Origin: Bacteroidales bacterium
Lineage (GTDB): Bacteria > Bacteroidota > Bacteroidia > Bacteroidales > UBA7960
Direction of reading: 5' to 3'
NCBI GenBank assembly: GCA_007118495.1
Contig: SKRM01000053.1
Coordinates: forward strand, 1-64,000
Length of the DNA: 64,000 nt
A model generated the notes under the pieces. The model searched no databases. It saw only the letters and a program-made list of their open reading frames with translations, and was not told the DNA's origin. Every line of letters begins with the position of its first letter. The stretch's first letter is position 1. Below are positions 52,371 through 61,415 of this stretch, piece after piece. The position numbers and the translations under genes are program-made.

Positions 52371-54473
52371 ATGGAATATAAAAACGACATACTCTTAAGG
52401 ATCAGGCTGGTGTACTTCGCCATGGCATTTTTTGCCCTGCTGATCATGGGTAAGGTCATCTATATTCAGTTGATTCAGGGAGATCATTGGAAAGAGCAGG
52501 CCAGAAACACTACGATGAGGTATGTAAGTATTGATGCTGCCAGGGGAGATATATATGCAGAAGACGGTCGCCTGCTGGCTACCAGTGTGCCTGTTTATGA
52601 AATCAGAATGGACCTTAGCCGGCAAGTTATTCCTGATGAACTATTTTTTGCAGGTATTGACTCGCTTTCATTACAACTGTCACGTTTGTTCAGAGACAGA
52701 ACCGCGGCCCAATACAGGTCTGCTCTTGCCAGGGCCAGACAGAACAATGAGAGATACTACCTGATAAAACGCAATGTAAGTTACAATGAGTTGGTTGAGT
52801 TAAGACAATTTCCAATTTTCAGGCTTGGCAGATACCGGGGAGGGCTTATAGTAATTGAAAACACCAGACGTGAGATGCCATACAGAACACTGGCTGCAAG
52901 AACAATAGGTTATGAAAGGGAGGGTGTTTATGTCGGGCTTGAAGGTGCCTATCGCGAATACCTTGAAGGAAGAGAAGGTAAAAGACTTATGCAGAGAATA
53001 AGTGGAGGATCGTGGATGCCTATTAATGATCAGAACGAAATCCAGCCCCAAAACGGGATGGATCTGATCACGACCATCAATGTACACATTCAGGATATTA
53101 CACATCAGGCATTACTAAGACAATTACAGAGATTCAGGGCTGATTACGGTACTGCAATTGTAATGGAAGTTGCTACCGGTAAGATCAAAGCCATCTCAAA
53201 CCTGATGCGCAATCAGTTAACAAATAATTATGAAGAGTCATACAATTATGCCATAGGCCACAGTGCTGAACCAGGTTCAACCTTCAAGCTGGCCAGTATG
53301 ATGGCAGCTCTCGAAGATGGAGTGGTCAACCTTGATGACATGGTTGACACCAAAGATGGTCGAATAGCATTTTATGACAGGATAATGCGTGACGTTAACC
53401 AGGAAGGCCATGGTGTAATTACCATCAGAGAAGCGTTCGAGCTTTCATCCAATGTGGGTATATCGCAGATTATCCACGATGCATATAAAGACAGACCACA
53501 AAGATTTGTTGACCGTCTGAAACAATTTCACCTGAACGAACCCCTTGGTCTGGAAATATCAGGCGAAGGTCAACCTGTAATCAGAGATGTGGGCAGCCAC
53601 GGCTGGTCACTTGTATCATTGCCATGGATGTCTATCGGTTATGAGGTAGCCCTAACGCCTTTACAAACCCTGACGTTGTATAATACGGTGGCCAACAATG
53701 GCAGGATGATGAAACCCATGTTTGTCAGTGAGGTTCGTCAGGCCGGAAGAACCGTCAAACGATTTTCACCAACCGTAATTAACCGGTCGGTTGCAAGCAA
53801 TGCAACCATCAGAAATGTACAGGAATTGTTGCAGGGCGTGGTTGAGAATGGCACAGCAAAAAATATACGCACCAGCGCCTACTCCATAGCCGGTAAAACA
53901 GGCACCGCACAGGTTGCACAATCAGCTTTTGGATATCAAACCCCCACCGGAGTTAATTACCAGGCTTCATTTGCTGGCTATTTCCCAGCTGAGAATCCGG
54001 TTTACAGTTGTATCGTGGTAATAAATAATCCCAGAGGCTGGATATATACGGGCAGCCAGGTCTCAGCGCCCGTTTTCAGAGAGGTTGCTGACAAAATTTT
54101 CGCAGCCAGAATGTTTATCCCCGAGATAGAGCTTTACGAACCTGTAATGGCTTCATTGCCCCCGTTCAGAAGCGCCTACATGGACGATGTCAGAACTATC
54201 TACAAAGCGTTTAATGCGCAGATTATTGAAGAAAGCAAGGCCAGCTGGGGTGGCGCAAGATTGAGGGGAGACACCGCTGAGCTTCACGAACGTGTTTTTA
54301 TTGAAAACCTTGTTCCTGAAGTAGTTGGAATGGGATTAAGGGATGCCATTTATGTTCTCGAAAATGCCGGATTAAGGGTCAGATTTACTGGCAGGGGTGT
54401 TGTCAGAAGACAGAGCATGCCACCCGGTGTTCGCATTAACCCGGGTAACGTAATTTATATTGAACTATCGTAA
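52371..54473 (+). CDS. ftsI: Division-specific penicillin-binding protein (FtsI/PBP3-like) with PASTA domain
   Basis: EPGSTFKL (SxxK), LSSNVG (SxN), AGKTGTAQ (KTG), C-terminal PASTA. Confidence 0.95.
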   Translation: MEYKNDILLRIRLVYFAMAFFALLIMGKVIYIQLIQGDHWKEQARNTTMRYVSIDAARGDIYAEDGRLLATSVPVYEIRMDLSRQVIPDELFFAGIDSLSLQLSRLFRDRTAAQYRSALARARQNNERYYLIKRNVSYNELVELRQFPIFRLGRYRGGLIVIENTRREMPYRTLAARTIGYEREGVYVGLEGAYREYLEGREGKRLMQRISGGSWMPINDQNEIQPQNGMDLITTINVHIQDITHQALLRQLQRFRADYGTAIVMEVATGKIKAISNLMRNQLTNNYEESYNYAIGHSAEPGSTFKLASMMAALEDGVVNLDDMVDTKDGRIAFYDRIMRDVNQEGHGVITIREAFELSSNVGISQIIHDAYKDRPQRFVDRLKQFHLNEPLGLEISGEGQPVIRDVGSHGWSLVSLPWMSIGYEVALTPLQTLTLYNTVANNGRMMKPMFVSEVRQAGRTVKRFSPTVINRSVASNATIRNVQELLQGVVENGTAKNIRTSAYSIAGKTGTAQVAQSAFGYQTPTGVNYQASFAGYFPAENPVYSCIVVINNPRGWIYTGSQVSAPVFREVADKIFAARMFIPEIELYEPVMASLPPFRSAYMDDVRTIYKAFNAQIIEESKASWGGARLRGDTAELHERVFIENLVPEVVGMGLRDAIYVLENAGLRVRFTGRGVVRRQSMPPGVRINPGNVIYIELS

Positions 54474-55947
54474 TACACAAGATATAGTGAAACTGCTCGA
54501 AGAAGTCATATACAAAATGAACGTCAGTGAAACTGCCGGATCGACAGACATCCCTGTAACCGCAGTGGTCTCTGATTCAAGAAACGCCCACCAGGGGTGT
54601 TTGTTTGTGGCTGTTAAAGGCTTGACATCTGATGGGCATCATTATATCAATCAGGCTATTGAAAAAGGAGCAAGGGCTGTTATATGTGAATCGCTACCTA
54701 AAAACATCCGGTCTGAGGTAAGTTATTTAAGGGTAAAAGATTCCATTAAGGCCCTTGGTATCGCAGCAGCCAATTATTATGACAACCCTTCAGCCAAGCT
54801 AAAACTGGTAGGCATTACCGGAACAAATGGAAAAACCACAGTTGCCGGTTTGTTGTTCCAGGTGTTTTCAAAAATGGGGCATCAGTGCGGGCTTATCTCA
54901 ACCATCAGCAACCACATAGGCATGAAAACTATTCCTGCACGATATACGACCCCCGATCCGGTTGAATTGAATGAGTTGTTGCATAGTATGGTAACGGAGG
55001 GCTGCACCTATGCCTTCATGGAAGTTAGTTCACACGCCCAGGCACAGTTCAGAACCCATGGACTTACATTCGCAGGAGGTGTTTTCACCAACATAAGCCA
55101 TGACCACCTTGATTATCACGGCACCTTTAAAAGTTACCTGAAAGCTAAGCAGTCATTTTTTGATATGCTGGGTGACGAGGCATTTGCACTGACAAACCTG
55201 GATGATAAAAATGGTATGATCATGGTTCAGAACACAAAAGCCATGGTTACCACCTACAGTCTGCAGGCGATGGCAGCCTTCAGGGCAAAAGTAATTGAAA
55301 ACACATTCACCGGTTTGCATATGCAAATTGACGGCCAGGATGTCTGGTGTAAACTGGTCGGAAAATTCAATGCTTACAATATAATGGCTGTGTATGGCGC
55401 CGGACGCTCATTGGGTGTCAGCCAGGATGCTATGTTGGCTGCCCTTAGCATGTGTCACCCAGCTGAAGGGAGGTTCGACTACTTTGTAAATCATGAAAAA
55501 ATTACAGGCATCGTCGACTATGCCCATACACCTGATGCCATAGAAAATGTACTAAAAACCATACAAGAAATCCGAACCGGACAGGAGAAAGTTATCACAG
55601 TAATCGGTTGCGGAGGAAACCGCGATAAGGCCAAGAGGCCTGCCATGGCCACCATTGCAGCCACTTACAGTGACAAGGTGGTTTTTACCAGCGATAACCC
55701 AAGGGATGAAGACCCCGAGGCCATTATTCAAGATATGGTGAGCGGATTGGATGTTGATCCGGGTTTAAAGAAAAAACACATCTCCATTACCAAACGCAGA
55801 GAAGCCATACATGTGGCCTGCATTATGGCGACATCGGGAGATATAATACTTGTGGCAGGGAAAGGCCATGAAAAATACCAGGAAATCAAAGGAGTTAAAC
55901 ACCCCTTTGATGATAGGGAATTATTAAAAGAGTTCTTAAAAAGGTAA
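54460..55947 (+). CDS. murE: UDP-MurNAc-tripeptide synthetase MurE (GTG start at 54487 possible)
   Basis: [27 protein letters not shown] (meso-DAP type), position in dcw cluster. Confidence 0.96.
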
Positions 55948-55949
55948 AG

Positions 55950-57206
55950 ATGCTGTATTACATATTTGAGTTTTTAGACCAAAACTTTGATATTCCGGGC
56001 ACGGGGGTATTCCAGTATATCTCTTTCAGGGCTGGTATGGCCATCATATTTTCACTGTTCATTACCATGATTTCGGGCAGACGGATTATCTCATACCTGC
56101 AAAAAATGCAGGTCGGTGAAACTGTTCGTGACCTGGGCCTCGAAGGACAAATGAAAAAAGAAGGCACACCGACAATGGGCGGGCTGATCATTATAGCGGC
56201 CATTGTTATCCCAACAATTTTATTTGCAAGGCTCAACAATATTTACATCATACTGATGCTTGTATCAACCCTTTGGCTTGGAGTCATCGGGTTTGTGGAT
56301 GACTACATCAAGGTTTTCAAAAAAGAAAAGCGAGGTCTGCATGGAAAGTTTAAAATTCTGGGGCAGATTACTCTGGGTATTATTGTGGGCACAACATTGT
56401 ATTTTCACGAGGGAGTGGTTATACGCGAAAAAACCACTGCGCAGTTTGAGTTTGTTAGCCCCAGTGAGATTCTTGAACTTGACGCCCAGACTACAAGAAC
56501 CACTCCGTTCCCCATGGAGTCAGTTAAGTCAACCAAAACCACCATCCCATTCTTTAAAGACAACGAGTTTGACTATACAGTACTGATTAGCTGGATGGGT
56601 AAAGAATATAAGAAATGGGGATTCATCATTTTTATACCCATCGTTATCCTCATCATTACAGCCGTCTCAAACGGGGCCAATATAACCGATGGACTGGATG
56701 GGCTTGCCACAGGTACTTCAGCAATAATCGGGGCAACACTGGGTATATTGGCCTATGTGTCAGGCAATATGTTATTTGCTGATTACCTGAATATCATGTA
56801 TATCCCCCAAACGGGCGAACTTGTAATATTCATTGCCGCATTCGTAGGTGCCTGCATCGGATTTCTCTGGTACAACTCCTACCCTGCCCAGGTATTTATG
56901 GGTGATACAGGAAGCCTTTCGCTGGGAGGGATTATTGCCGTATTTGCCATCGTTATTCGCAAAGAATTGCTCATTCCCATATTATGTGGAGTGTTTTTTA
57001 TGGAAAGTCTGTCGGTTATCATACAGGTAGTATGGTTTAAAATTACCCGAAGGCGTTTTGGTGAAGGCAGACGGGTTTTCAGGATGGCCCCTCTTCATCA
57101 CCATTACCAGTTAAAGGGGTTCCATGAGGCCAAAATTGTTCAACGGTTTTTTATTGTGGGAATCATGCTGGCTGTTTTTTCAGTCATCACCCTTAAATTA
57201 AGATAA
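55950..57206 (+). CDS. mraY: Phospho-N-acetylmuramoyl-pentapeptide-transferase
   Basis: [56 protein letters not shown]. Confidence 0.97.
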
Positions 57207-57224
57207 GCATTTAACCTTCTATAT

Positions 57225-57773
57225 ATGGATACGCTTGAAAAAGCATTGGTTGAGAGACAAAACATTTACAGAAATATGGCTGGAGGTATCGCCTCCAGAC
57301 TGTTTGATGTCAGAAAAAAAGGTATCAAAGAGTGCCTGAGTGGATTTCAAAACGAAGCACACAGGCTTGAGCTTGTGACAACAGTTCGGGGCATCCGCTT
57401 TATAAACGACAGCCGGGCCACCAATGTAAATGCCACGTGGTTTGCCCTTGAGACCATGAATAGTCCGGTGGTCTGGATCGCAGGCGGGCAGGATAATGGA
57501 AATGATTATTCTACACTGTCGGGCCTGGTTGAGCAAAAGGTGCGATTGATCATTTGCCTGGGTACAGATAATACAAATATCCGCCGATATTTCAGTCGTT
57601 TCACGGGAACTATTGTAGAGGTTAATAATATGAAAGATGCTGTTTTTGCGGCATATCAGCACGGTATACCAGGTGACACCGTCTTATTATCGCCGGCATG
57701 CGCCAGTTTTGACCTGTTCAACAATTATGCTGACCGGGGCAAACAATTTATGCAGGCGGTATATGACCTTTAA
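57225..57773 (+). pseudogene. murD: C-terminal domain of MurD only; N-terminal and most of the ATP-binding domain absent (truncated gene or domain remnant)
   Basis: 182 aa: HRLELVTTVRGIRFINDSRATNVNATWFALE, WIAGGQDNGNDYS, LLSPACASFDLFNNYADRGKQF; no Mur P-loop; preceding mraY stop only 18 nt upstream. Confidence 0.85.
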
Positions 57774-57786
57774 TAACACAAGAAGT

Positions 57787-58953
57787 ATGCAGGCCATTTT
57801 AAAACATATGAAGGGAGACAGAACAATCTGGATGGTGGTTGTGTTTCTGTATATTGTGTCCATACTTGCAGTATACAGTTCAACCGGCACACTGGCATAC
57901 CGTCTCCGTTCAGGCAATACAGAATACTACCTCATCAGGCAGTTCATCATTATACTGTTTGGATTTGGCCTGATGTATCTGGCTCACAACATTAAATACT
58001 CGTATTATAGTCGTATATCGCAGCTGGCACTATACCTGGCCATACCCCTGCTGCTCTTTACCTTGCTGAGGGGAACTGCAGCGCACGAAGCTAGCCGCTG
58101 GATTACCTTACCTGTAATCAACCTGACTTTTCAGAGTTCAGACTTCGCCAAACTTGCCCTGATCATTTATATGGCAAGGGTACTTACCAGAAAGCAAGAT
58201 TCGATCCAAGACCTTCAGCAGGGATTTATTCCAATGGTCATCCCTGCAATGTTAATATGCGCACTTATTTTGCCTGCCAATTTTTCTACAGCTGCCTTAC
58301 TTTTTATCACTTGTATCGTGCTCATGTTCATCGGAAGGGTTCGTATCAAATACATTGCAGGACTGGTTGGGGTAAGTATAATTGCAGCATTAATGCTTAT
58401 TATGGTACTTGCTGTTATGCCTGGAAGCAGCAGGGTTGACACCTGGCGCAACCGGGTTACAGCTTTTGTTGACAGAGAAAACAATAATACATATCAGGCA
58501 GATCAGGCAAAGATCGCCATCGCCACGGGTGGTATTATCGGAAAAATGCCAGGAAATTCAACCCAGCGAAACTTTCTTCCTGAAGCATATTCTGACTTTA
58601 TCTATGCAATTATCATAGAGGAGTATGGCCTTGCAGGAGGCTTTGTGGTATTACTGCTTTATTTGATATTGCTTTACAGGGGGGTGCGTATCGCCCACAA
58701 AAGCCCCGGCACATTCGGGGCGCTACTGGCAGCGGGACTTAGTTTCAGTCTTGTATTTCAGGCCATGATAAATATGGCCGTGGCCGTCAACCTGATTCCG
58801 GTTACAGGTCAGCCTTTGCCACTTGTAAGTATGGGAGGTACCTCCCTTTGGTTTACCAGTCTGGCAATCGGAATTATTTTAAGTGTTAGCAGAAGTATTG
58901 AAGAAAACGAAATAACCAATGGCCCAACTTACACGACCGGTCAAACCGCTTAG
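57787..58953 (+). CDS. ftsW: FtsW-type lipid II polymerase
   Basis: SEDS multi-TM protein; PEAYSDFIYAIIIEEYGLAGG, TGQPLPLVSMGGTSLWFTSLAIGIILSVSR; start trimmed from 57637. Confidence 0.95.
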   Translation: MQAILKHMKGDRTIWMVVVFLYIVSILAVYSSTGTLAYRLRSGNTEYYLIRQFIIILFGFGLMYLAHNIKYSYYSRISQLALYLAIPLLLFTLLRGTAAHEASRWITLPVINLTFQSSDFAKLALIIYMARVLTRKQDSIQDLQQGFIPMVIPAMLICALILPANFSTAALLFITCIVLMFIGRVRIKYIAGLVGVSIIAALMLIMVLAVMPGSSRVDTWRNRVTAFVDRENNNTYQADQAKIAIATGGIIGKMPGNSTQRNFLPEAYSDFIYAIIIEEYGLAGGFVVLLLYLILLYRGVRIAHKSPGTFGALLAAGLSFSLVFQAMINMAVAVNLIPVTGQPLPLVSMGGTSLWFTSLAIGIILSVSRSIEENEITNGPTYTTGQTA

Positions 58954-60043
58954 TGTGATCATCGCAGGAGGAGGCACCGGAGGACACGTCTTCCCGGCAA
59001 TTGCCATTGCCATGGCCATCAAAAAGCAGGCATACAATGCCCGCATTTTGTTTGTGGGAGCCAGGGGCCGGATGGAAATGAAAAAAGTGCCCGAAGCAGG
59101 CTTTCATATTATCGGTCTTGATATAATGGGGTTGCAAAGGCGCTTGAGTTGGAAAAACTTACTGTTGCCATTGAAAATCATCAAGAGTCTGAATGGCGCC
59201 AATAAAATTGTGAAGCGCTTCAAGCCTGATGTTGTAATTGGTGTTGGGGGTTATGCAAGTGGTCCCATCTTATGGGCTGCTGCCAAACAAAAAATACCTG
59301 TATTGATTCAGGAACAAAACTCATTCCCAGGCTTAACAAATAGAATCATTGGGAAAAAAGCATCCAAAATTTGTGTAGCCTATGAAGGCATGGATAAATA
59401 TTTTGCCCGGGAGAAAATTTACCTGACCGGAAATCCGGTTCGAAATGATGTGGTAAACATACAGGGCAAAGAAAAACTGGCCTATGAATATTTCGGGCTT
59501 GACAGGAGTAAGCCCGTGATACTAATCACAGGAGGAAGTCTTGGAGCAAGATCAATAAACGAAAGCATTTATAATCACCTGGATGCATTTCAAAATGCAG
59601 GTGTGCAGCTTATATGGCAAACTGGTAAACCTTTCTTTGAAAAAGCAAGCCAGAAAGTTACACAAGGGTATGAAGAAACAATCAGGGTAAAAGCGTTCAT
59701 TGACCAGATGGATTATGCATATGCAGCAGCAGATCTGGTAATAAGCCGCTCTGGCGCCATTGCCGTATCTGAAATATGTGTGGTGAAAAAACCAGTTATC
59801 CTGGTACCCTCACCCAATGTTGCAGAAGATCACCAGACAAAAAATGCCATGGCCCTGGTAAATCATCATGCCGCCATTTTGGTAAAAGATGCTGAAGCCA
59901 TGGATAAACTCCCGTCTGAAGCCATATCACTGGTGAAAGATAAAAACAGATTGCACCGTCTGAAAGAGAGAATGGCCGGACTGTCATACAGAGATGCCGC
60001 AGAATCAATCGCCGGAATGGCCATTGGAATGATACAACGATAA
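58919..60043 (+). CDS. murG: UDP-GlcNAc:lipid I GlcNAc transferase
   Basis: IAGGGTGGHVFPAIAIA, VVIGVGGYASGP, QEQNSFPGLTNRIIG, ITGGSLGARSIN. Confidence 0.97.
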   Translation: MAQLTRPVKPLSVIIAGGGTGGHVFPAIAIAMAIKKQAYNARILFVGARGRMEMKKVPEAGFHIIGLDIMGLQRRLSWKNLLLPLKIIKSLNGANKIVKRFKPDVVIGVGGYASGPILWAAAKQKIPVLIQEQNSFPGLTNRIIGKKASKICVAYEGMDKYFAREKIYLTGNPVRNDVVNIQGKEKLAYEYFGLDRSKPVILITGGSLGARSINESIYNHLDAFQNAGVQLIWQTGKPFFEKASQKVTQGYEETIRVKAFIDQMDYAYAAADLVISRSGAIAVSEICVVKKPVILVPSPNVAEDHQTKNAMALVNHHAAILVKDAEAMDKLPSEAISLVKDKNRLHRLKERMAGLSYRDAAESIAGMAIGMIQR

Positions 60044-60053
60044 AATGAATTGA

Positions 60054-61415
60054 ATGAAGGATATTGACCAGATAACAACAGTATATTTTCTTGGCATTGG
60101 AGGTATCGGCATGAGTGCCCTGGCCAGATACTTCCATTCGAGAGGGGTCAATGTGTGTGGTTATGATAAAACCCCTTCAGAAATCACAAAAGCATTACAA
60201 CTTGAGGGTATAGAGGTAAGTTTTGAAGATGATCCGGCAGGGGTTTCAAGCCAGCCTGAACTGGTAGTATATACACCGGCAGTGCCTACTGATACGAACC
60301 TCTTCACTTATTTTTCGGCACAAGATATCCCGTTGAAAAAGCGGTCTGAAATATTAGGACTGATCTCTTCAGCCCTGCCAACAATTGCGGTTGCCGGAAC
60401 ACATGGAAAGACAACCATCGGTGCCATGCTGACCCATATATTTATCCAGGCAGGTGTTCCATGCACGGCTTTTCTTGGGGGTATTAGCACAAATTACAAT
60501 ACAAACTATGTAGGCGAACCCGGATCACACTGGCTGATTGCAGAAGCAGATGAATTTGACCGTTCGTTTCTTCAGCTGCATCCCCGATTAGCCCTCATAA
60601 GCTCAATGGATACCGACCATTTGGATATTTATGGCAGCTATGAGGAGTTGACAAGGTCATTCAATATGTTCACAAAACAGATCAGTAAACAGGGGGTGCT
60701 GATCGTCAACAACCGCATTAAAAGCCGGCTCGATTATTCCGGAAAGTGCTACACATACGGTTTTACCCGAGAATCAGATTATTCCATGAACAATACAGGC
60801 ATAAGGGAGGGCTATTACGAAGCCGATTTCAATGGAATGCTCGAAATCCAAGGGGTAATGATCGGGCATCCAGGCAGGCATAATCTGGAAAACGCCCTGG
60901 CAGCGGCTGCGCTTGCACATCAGGCCGGAATAGCCCCTGAGTCCATCAAAAGAGCCCTGTCGGGCTTTACTGGTGTAAAAAGACGATTTGAAGTGCATAT
61001 TCAAACCACCAACACCGTGTATCTAGATGATTACGCGCATCACCCCGAAGAGATCAGGGCCTGTATTCTGTCAGCCAGGGAGATTTGGCCCAAAAGAAAG
61101 ATTACAGGAGTATTTCAGCCACATCTATATACGAGAACAAGAGACCTTGCAGACCAGTTTGCCGATAGCTTATCGCTTTTGGATGAGCTCATCCTGCTTG
61201 ATATATATCCGGCACGTGAAGAACCAATTGAAGGTGTCGATTCAGAAATGATACTTGACAAAGTGAAGACAAAAGCCATTGTCAGCAAACGCGAAGAGCT
61301 GCTGTCATTACTTAAACGCAAGCACACCGACATCCTGATTACCATGGGGGCAGGTGATATTGACCGTTTTACAGAACCTATTAAGCAATTGCTTCAAAAC
61401 AAGGGATTGTCATGA
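60054..61415 (+). CDS. murC: UDP-MurNAc--L-alanine ligase
   Basis: FLGIGGIGMSALARYFHSRG, VAGTHGKTTIGAMLTHIF, DEFDRSFLQLHP, DDYAHHPEEI. Confidence 0.97.
   Translation: MKDIDQITTVYFLGIGGIGMSALARYFHSRGVNVCGYDKTPSEITKALQLEGIEVSFEDDPAGVSSQPELVVYTPAVPTDTNLFTYFSAQDIPLKKRSEILGLISSALPTIAVAGTHGKTTIGAMLTHIFIQAGVPCTAFLGGISTNYNTNYVGEPGSHWLIAEADEFDRSFLQLHPRLALISSMDTDHLDIYGSYEELTRSFNMFTKQISKQGVLIVNNRIKSRLDYSGKCYTYGFTRESDYSMNNTGIREGYYEADFNGMLEIQGVMIGHPGRHNLENALAAAALAHQAGIAPESIKRALSGFTGVKRRFEVHIQTTNTVYLDDYAHHPEEIRACILSAREIWPKRKITGVFQPHLYTRTRDLADQFADSLSLLDELILLDIYPAREEPIEGVDSEMILDKVKTKAIVSKREELLSLLKRKHTDILITMGAGDIDRFTEPIKQLLQNKGLS

Follow-up and report, generated by a model that had tools for sequence, protein, structure and literature searches.

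The truncated murD gene between mraY and ftsW

The DNA that was analysed, a stretch of 64,000 nucleotides that is referred to as the window, carries the dcw cluster genes murE, mraY, ftsW, murG and murC and, between mraY and ftsW, a short gene that encodes a stand-alone MurD C-terminal domain and is called murD-C below (Table 1).

Table 1. Features of the dcw cluster in the window.
Feature	Position	Strand	Remarks and evidence
murE, full length	54460-55947	+	NF001126, 608 bits
mraY, upstream neighbour	55950-57206	+	TIGR00445, E 1e-99
Deletion junction, mraY stop to murD-C start	57207-57224	+	18 nt; sequence
murD-C, stand-alone MurD C-terminal domain gene	57225-57773	+	182 aa and stop; TIGR01087, Foldseek, congeners
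ftsW, downstream neighbour	57763-58953	+	ORF list; position kept in relatives
murG	58919-60043	+	ORF list; matches conserved 3' of ftsW in relatives
murC, full length	60054-61415	+	three Mur ligase Pfam domains

The preliminary description of this locus had reported an open reading frame of 182 codons that matched only the MurD C-terminal domain and began 18 nt after the end of mraY, and both points were confirmed: the match of murD-C to the NCBIfam murD model TIGR01087 (441 positions) was confined to positions 265-439 (E 1e-49), and its Pfam match was Mur_ligase_C. As the range of the TIGR01087 match indicates, the N-terminal domain and the P-loop central domain of the three-domain MurD are absent; compared with the nearest full-length relative (L034, 448 aa) approximately 262 N-terminal residues are missing, vs. 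an earlier estimate of about 250. The closest solved relatives, both by sequence and by fold, were MurD crystal structures (Foldseek E 1e-13), and with its Mur_ligase_C fold and MurD-specific sequence murD-C is a homologue of the MurD C-terminal domain. A chance match is excluded because the domain recurs at this locus in 20 congeners. In the AlphaFold2 model (pLDDT 75), the fold was confident from approximately residue 47 to the end, except for the loop at residues 161-166, while residues 10-36, a helical stretch that in full MurD belongs to the last part of the central domain, which is missing here, were uncertain. The start Met aligns with a Met that is conserved in 28 of 30 full-length MurDs, so that a clean deletion would have found a start codon ready; within the full-length gene this Met is a candidate start for an isoform consisting of the C domain, around which AT-richness was only weakly elevated. 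At the other end, the first ATG candidate of ftsW, at 57763, overlaps the end of murD-C, and the second is located at 57787. A terminator scan also marked a 19-base stem-loop-like inverted repeat within murD-C (57280-57298).

Comparison of the junction in sister genomes, which had been recommended beforehand, revealed the same architecture in the 20 congeners. The C-domain-only MurD was thus found in each of the 21 genomes sampled from the genus (the window genome and 20 congeners), intact and with the same start, although a contig edge leaves only its 5' part in the congener G014. Wherever the contig allows, it lies 3' of mraY and 5' of ftsW, with a gap to mraY of 13 to 214 nt. The public Bacteroidales MAG records PWNY01000368 and SKYG01000148 likewise represent one congener and one member of a sister genus. 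A frame of 619 aa in G016 and G019 was considered as a MraY-C domain fusion and was rejected, as the mraY stop codon is present.

The residue drift noticed earlier is real. Residues are given in E. coli numbering, taken in part from PMC8788868. Full-length MurDs, those of MurL-encoding genomes included, show little or no variation at K348, K319, T321, S415, F422 and the GxHN motif. Most of the truncated forms have lost K348 and GxHN, and they vary at K319, T321, S415 and F422; every one of them has D317, and the strand core around W84 is also kept, as are the SP motif, G172 and F175. murD-C of the window has Asn (Asn91) at the position of the invariant Lys K348, Arg at K319, and ERQN where its relatives have GKHN, i.e., the Gly and His were lost and the Asn was kept. 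This pattern indicates that the contacts specific to the ligase (D-Glu and phosphate) eroded and the fold was retained. By itself, murD-C cannot be a ligase.

Ligase chemistry and recurrence of the truncation in the order

The window genome is a draft of 2.63 Mb in 78 contigs that is 98% complete, and its Mur-type genes encode MurC, MurE, a stand-alone MurF, a MurF-Alr fusion, Mpl and FolC. The preliminary description had named a full copy of murD elsewhere in the genome as one of three options, which turned out to be correct only in that a full-length MurD-like protein is encoded on contig C73. This protein, the only one of its kind in the genome, is encoded directly after a MurL homologue (E 3e-68 over 327 positions of NF041275 for the part in L004), and it has Glu at the position of D182 (EEH) and Arg at that of K348 (GGKDRG) in the alignment. 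Both residues are reported to confer the L-Glu specificity of the Xanthomonas oryzae MurD2 (PMC8788868). By its residues, the C73 gene is a MurD2 of the predicted L-Glu type, paired with MurL, and not a relocated murD. MurI was absent from the window genome; a weak racemase match on C57 was rejected as MurI, being a CuyB or cysteate/aspartate-racemase-like protein. The CuyB/aspartate-racemase-like gene (L080:487-1254) might supply small amounts of D-amino acids. Since the sole full-length MurD-like protein is a MurD2 behind MurL and MurI is absent, the catalytic job appears to have moved from MurD to the MurD2-MurL route, in which MurD2 would add L-Glu and MurL would epimerise it to give the D-Glu position of the peptidoglycan.

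A survey of 393 genomes of the order, most of them MAGs and each at least 90% complete, revealed MurL in 130, MurI in 244, both in none and neither in 19, absence being called from family models and MurL scoring below the NF041275 cut-off, which was set for Xanthomonadales (231-249 vs. 700 bits). No MurI above the cut-off was found in any MurL-encoding genome of the order, nor was any Dat, which was searched as another D-Glu source, found above the cut-off among 61 relatives. In a lineage that has the MurD2-MurL route and lacks MurI, the canonical MurD is therefore without a dedicated D-Glu supply.

Among the 80 MurL-encoding genomes examined, the dcw murD was reduced to the C domain in 34, which belong to 18 families, and was of full length, or had its N-terminal part visible at a contig edge, in 43; in two the place was not assembled and in one (G108) mraY was in another context and the C domain was not found. 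The 18 families include 10 that also have full-length members. In every truncated locus with both neighbours assembled the gene is located between mraY and ftsW (in L144 ftsW would lie past the contig end), and none contained debris of the N-terminal or central domains between mraY and ftsW, such matches being to MurE and MurC. The truncated forms were 176-187 aa each time, and an N-terminal part alone was never found. On a tree of MraY and FtsW from 85 loci, which was built using a quick method and has 28 weak forks, the truncated or full-length label required 14 changes, of which at least 10 were forced by strongly supported branches, vs. 27 when the labels were shuffled. Because a regain of two domains is unlikely, most of the 14 changes should be independent truncations. 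The C-only MurD was almost confined to MurL-encoding genomes, and elsewhere in the phylum none of the approximately 150 MurD frames listed from 168 genomes was short.

Two genomes deserve a separate mention. G108 (L175, G108:C183:500-7000) is the sole examined MurL-encoding genome in which mraY is assembled and the canonical MurD C domain was not found; its mraY is not part of the dcw order and has as neighbours one gene for a predicted lipoprotein and another that is apparently kdsB-like. In G051 (98% complete; L176, G051:C4:297000-304000), MraY, MurG, FtsW and a Mur ligase are in place, there was no match to MurI, MurL or full-length MurD, and a diverged C-only MurD (18 bits, Pfam) is kept between mraY and ftsW.

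In the full-length dcw MurD of the MurL-encoding genomes, the catalytic motifs are all intact. Those of L034, L036 and L045 keep the P-loop, D182 and K348 (D-Glu type), and MurI and Dat were not found there. These full-length proteins may act as a residual ligase on salvaged D-Glu, and since this is possible, a second MurD function is not required in order to explain them. The ratio of the rates of the N-terminal and central domains to that of the C domain was 1.70 in family f1, approximately 1.5 in the other MurL-encoding families and approximately 1.2 in genomes with MurI; the pairs compared are not independent, so that the pattern is no more than suggestive, and it would fit a constraint that shifted to the C domain before the truncation.

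Selection on the retained domain and its possible role

In close pairs, dN/dS of murD-C was 0.05-0.12 as estimated using NG86, a simple counting method for which many pairs were saturated at silent sites, and in other families the changes were concentrated at codon position 3, positions 1 and 2 changing much less. Relative to MraY, the rate of the stand-alone C domain was 3.16 vs. 1.11 for the domain within full-length MurD, i.e., it evolved approximately 2.8 times faster. Judging by these rates, murD-C is constrained, though less than the same domain within the enzyme. As read from gene structures and substitution patterns, the comparison showed that the catalytic domains of the dcw MurD were cleanly deleted in many lineages and that the C domain was kept under purifying selection.

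Several explanations of this gene can be weighed against one another. That approximately 790 bp were lost in the assembly, as the preliminary description had allowed, could be imagined for a draft in 78 contigs, but the idea is already refuted: the same architecture occurs in the separately assembled genomes of the 20 congeners as well as in the two public MAG records, and the junction without debris recurs independently in 17 other families. A slowly decaying pseudogene, a fossil of the takeover by MurD2-MurL, would account for the higher relative rate, the erosion of the active-site residues and the very diverged copies in families f2, f75, f94 and f67. Neither relaxed selection nor broken frames, by which a pseudogene would be recognised, were observed, however; the low dN/dS and the intact frames, already described for the window and found unbroken in all 21 genomes of the genus, largely refute this explanation. 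Moreover, the same domain boundary was reached in at least ten lineages, and piecemeal decay would not yield a protein of the same narrow size range every time, and we consider a fossil improbable. It is even less probable that the protein is immaterial and that the 3' part of murD persists because it couples the translation of mraY and ftsW or spaces the two genes. The overlap or abutment with ftsW in the window and the conserved gene order would suit such a role in cis, but selection acts on amino acids across the whole domain, the distance to mraY varies within the genus and coupling would need only a few codons.

With regard to the earlier suggestion that the domain works in trans, two forms of it fared differently. 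As a split ligase, the C domain would combine with the first two domains of a different Mur ligase to complete an active site, in favour of which the presence of D317 in every truncated form could be cited; we regard this as very improbable, as K348 and the GxHN motif were lost, T321 and F422 are variable and all of the other Mur ligases of the genome have a C domain of their own. A ligase role in trans is thus disfavoured because the catalytic residues erode, whereas a non-catalytic role in trans is the best explanation, so that the preliminary interpretation as a whole was partly supported. The main rival among the non-catalytic roles is an accessory or regulatory subunit that would bind to MurD2 or MurL in order to stabilise, activate or regulate its partner. 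The near restriction of the C-only MurD to MurL-encoding genomes favours such a subunit, as does the binding of the amino acid by the C domain of Mur ligases (PMC6420597). Yet G051, in which neither MurL nor full-length MurD was matched, still has the diverged domain, murD-C has remained in the dcw cluster instead of moving to murL-murD2, approximately half of the MurL-encoding genomes have a full-length MurD instead and MurD2 has a complete C domain of its own; we therefore think a subunit of MurD2 or MurL unlikely, although it is less so than the fossil.

That murD-C retained some non-catalytic function is, in our opinion, highly probable, even though the 2.8-fold relative rate, the strong divergence of the copies of some families and the apparent loss in G108, together with the dcw order, speak against it. 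In Thermotoga maritima, MurG and MreB are reported binding partners of MurD (PMC6420597; PMC4929429), and because of this binding and of the place of murD-C between mraY and ftsW, an adaptor is the most economical guess. After MurD2-MurL took over the chemistry, the dcw MurD would have shed the domains that bind UDP-MurNAc and ATP, and the C domain, holding a second MurD function that does not need ligase activity, would have remained in the seat of MurD as an adaptor or docking domain in a cytoplasmic assembly of Mur ligases, MurG and MraY. What is left would be a non-enzymatic protein dedicated to the machinery that makes peptidoglycan precursors. The reading of murD-C as a conserved, apparently functional non-catalytic remnant of MurD, most likely an adaptor in the precursor complex, appears to us about evenly balanced between right and wrong, and the adaptor role taken specifically is a tentative proposal that falls somewhat short of this. 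We lean slightly towards the more general idea that the MurD C domain houses a hidden, ligase-independent function that was exposed by at least ten independent losses of the catalytic domains in MurD2-MurL bacteria. Recurrent truncation, together with retention as a conserved protein, suggests a second, non-catalytic job of MurD. Such roles of Mur ligases have long been suspected and are hard to separate from the essential catalysis. Many independent lineages have apparently become natural separation-of-function mutants in which catalysis is gone and one domain is kept, which makes a non-catalytic MurD role directly testable and indicates the relevant domain.

Relation to known Mur systems

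In the open-access literature, we found no report of a natural C-domain-only MurD, and earlier reports may exist elsewhere. murD-C resembles the canonical MurD in its sequence, fold and position between mraY and ftsW, but it lacks the first two domains, and K348 and GxHN, which are lost in the window, are variable in its truncated relatives. Among the weak Foldseek matches of murD-C was a chain of the plastid-encoded RNA polymerase (8ras). The MurE-like subunit of this polymerase is a Mur ligase that was retained as a structural subunit; it concerns a different ligase, complex and organism, and its link to murD-C is by analogy only. The scaffolds that MurG and MreB form with MurD, MurE and MurF (PMC6420597, PMC4929429) could plausibly accommodate a MurD domain without catalytic activity in the vicinity of MraY and MurG, although they involve full-length enzymes from other phyla.

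The window genome resembles Xanthomonas oryzae (PMC8788868) in its adjacent murL-murD2, its lack of MurI and its two L-Glu determinants; its MurL differs in scoring far under the Xanthomonadales model cut-off. In the same paper the MurD2-MurL route was described as limited to a few genera, namely of a few Proteobacteria and actinobacteria, and this Bacteroidota order was not mentioned, whereas here the route is encoded by approximately a third of the sampled genomes of a Bacteroidales-type order, where it and the glutamate racemase are mutually exclusive. In G135 and in four members of family f75 (G110, G199, G328 and G419), MurL and MurD2 are apparently fused in one frame of 885-949 aa.
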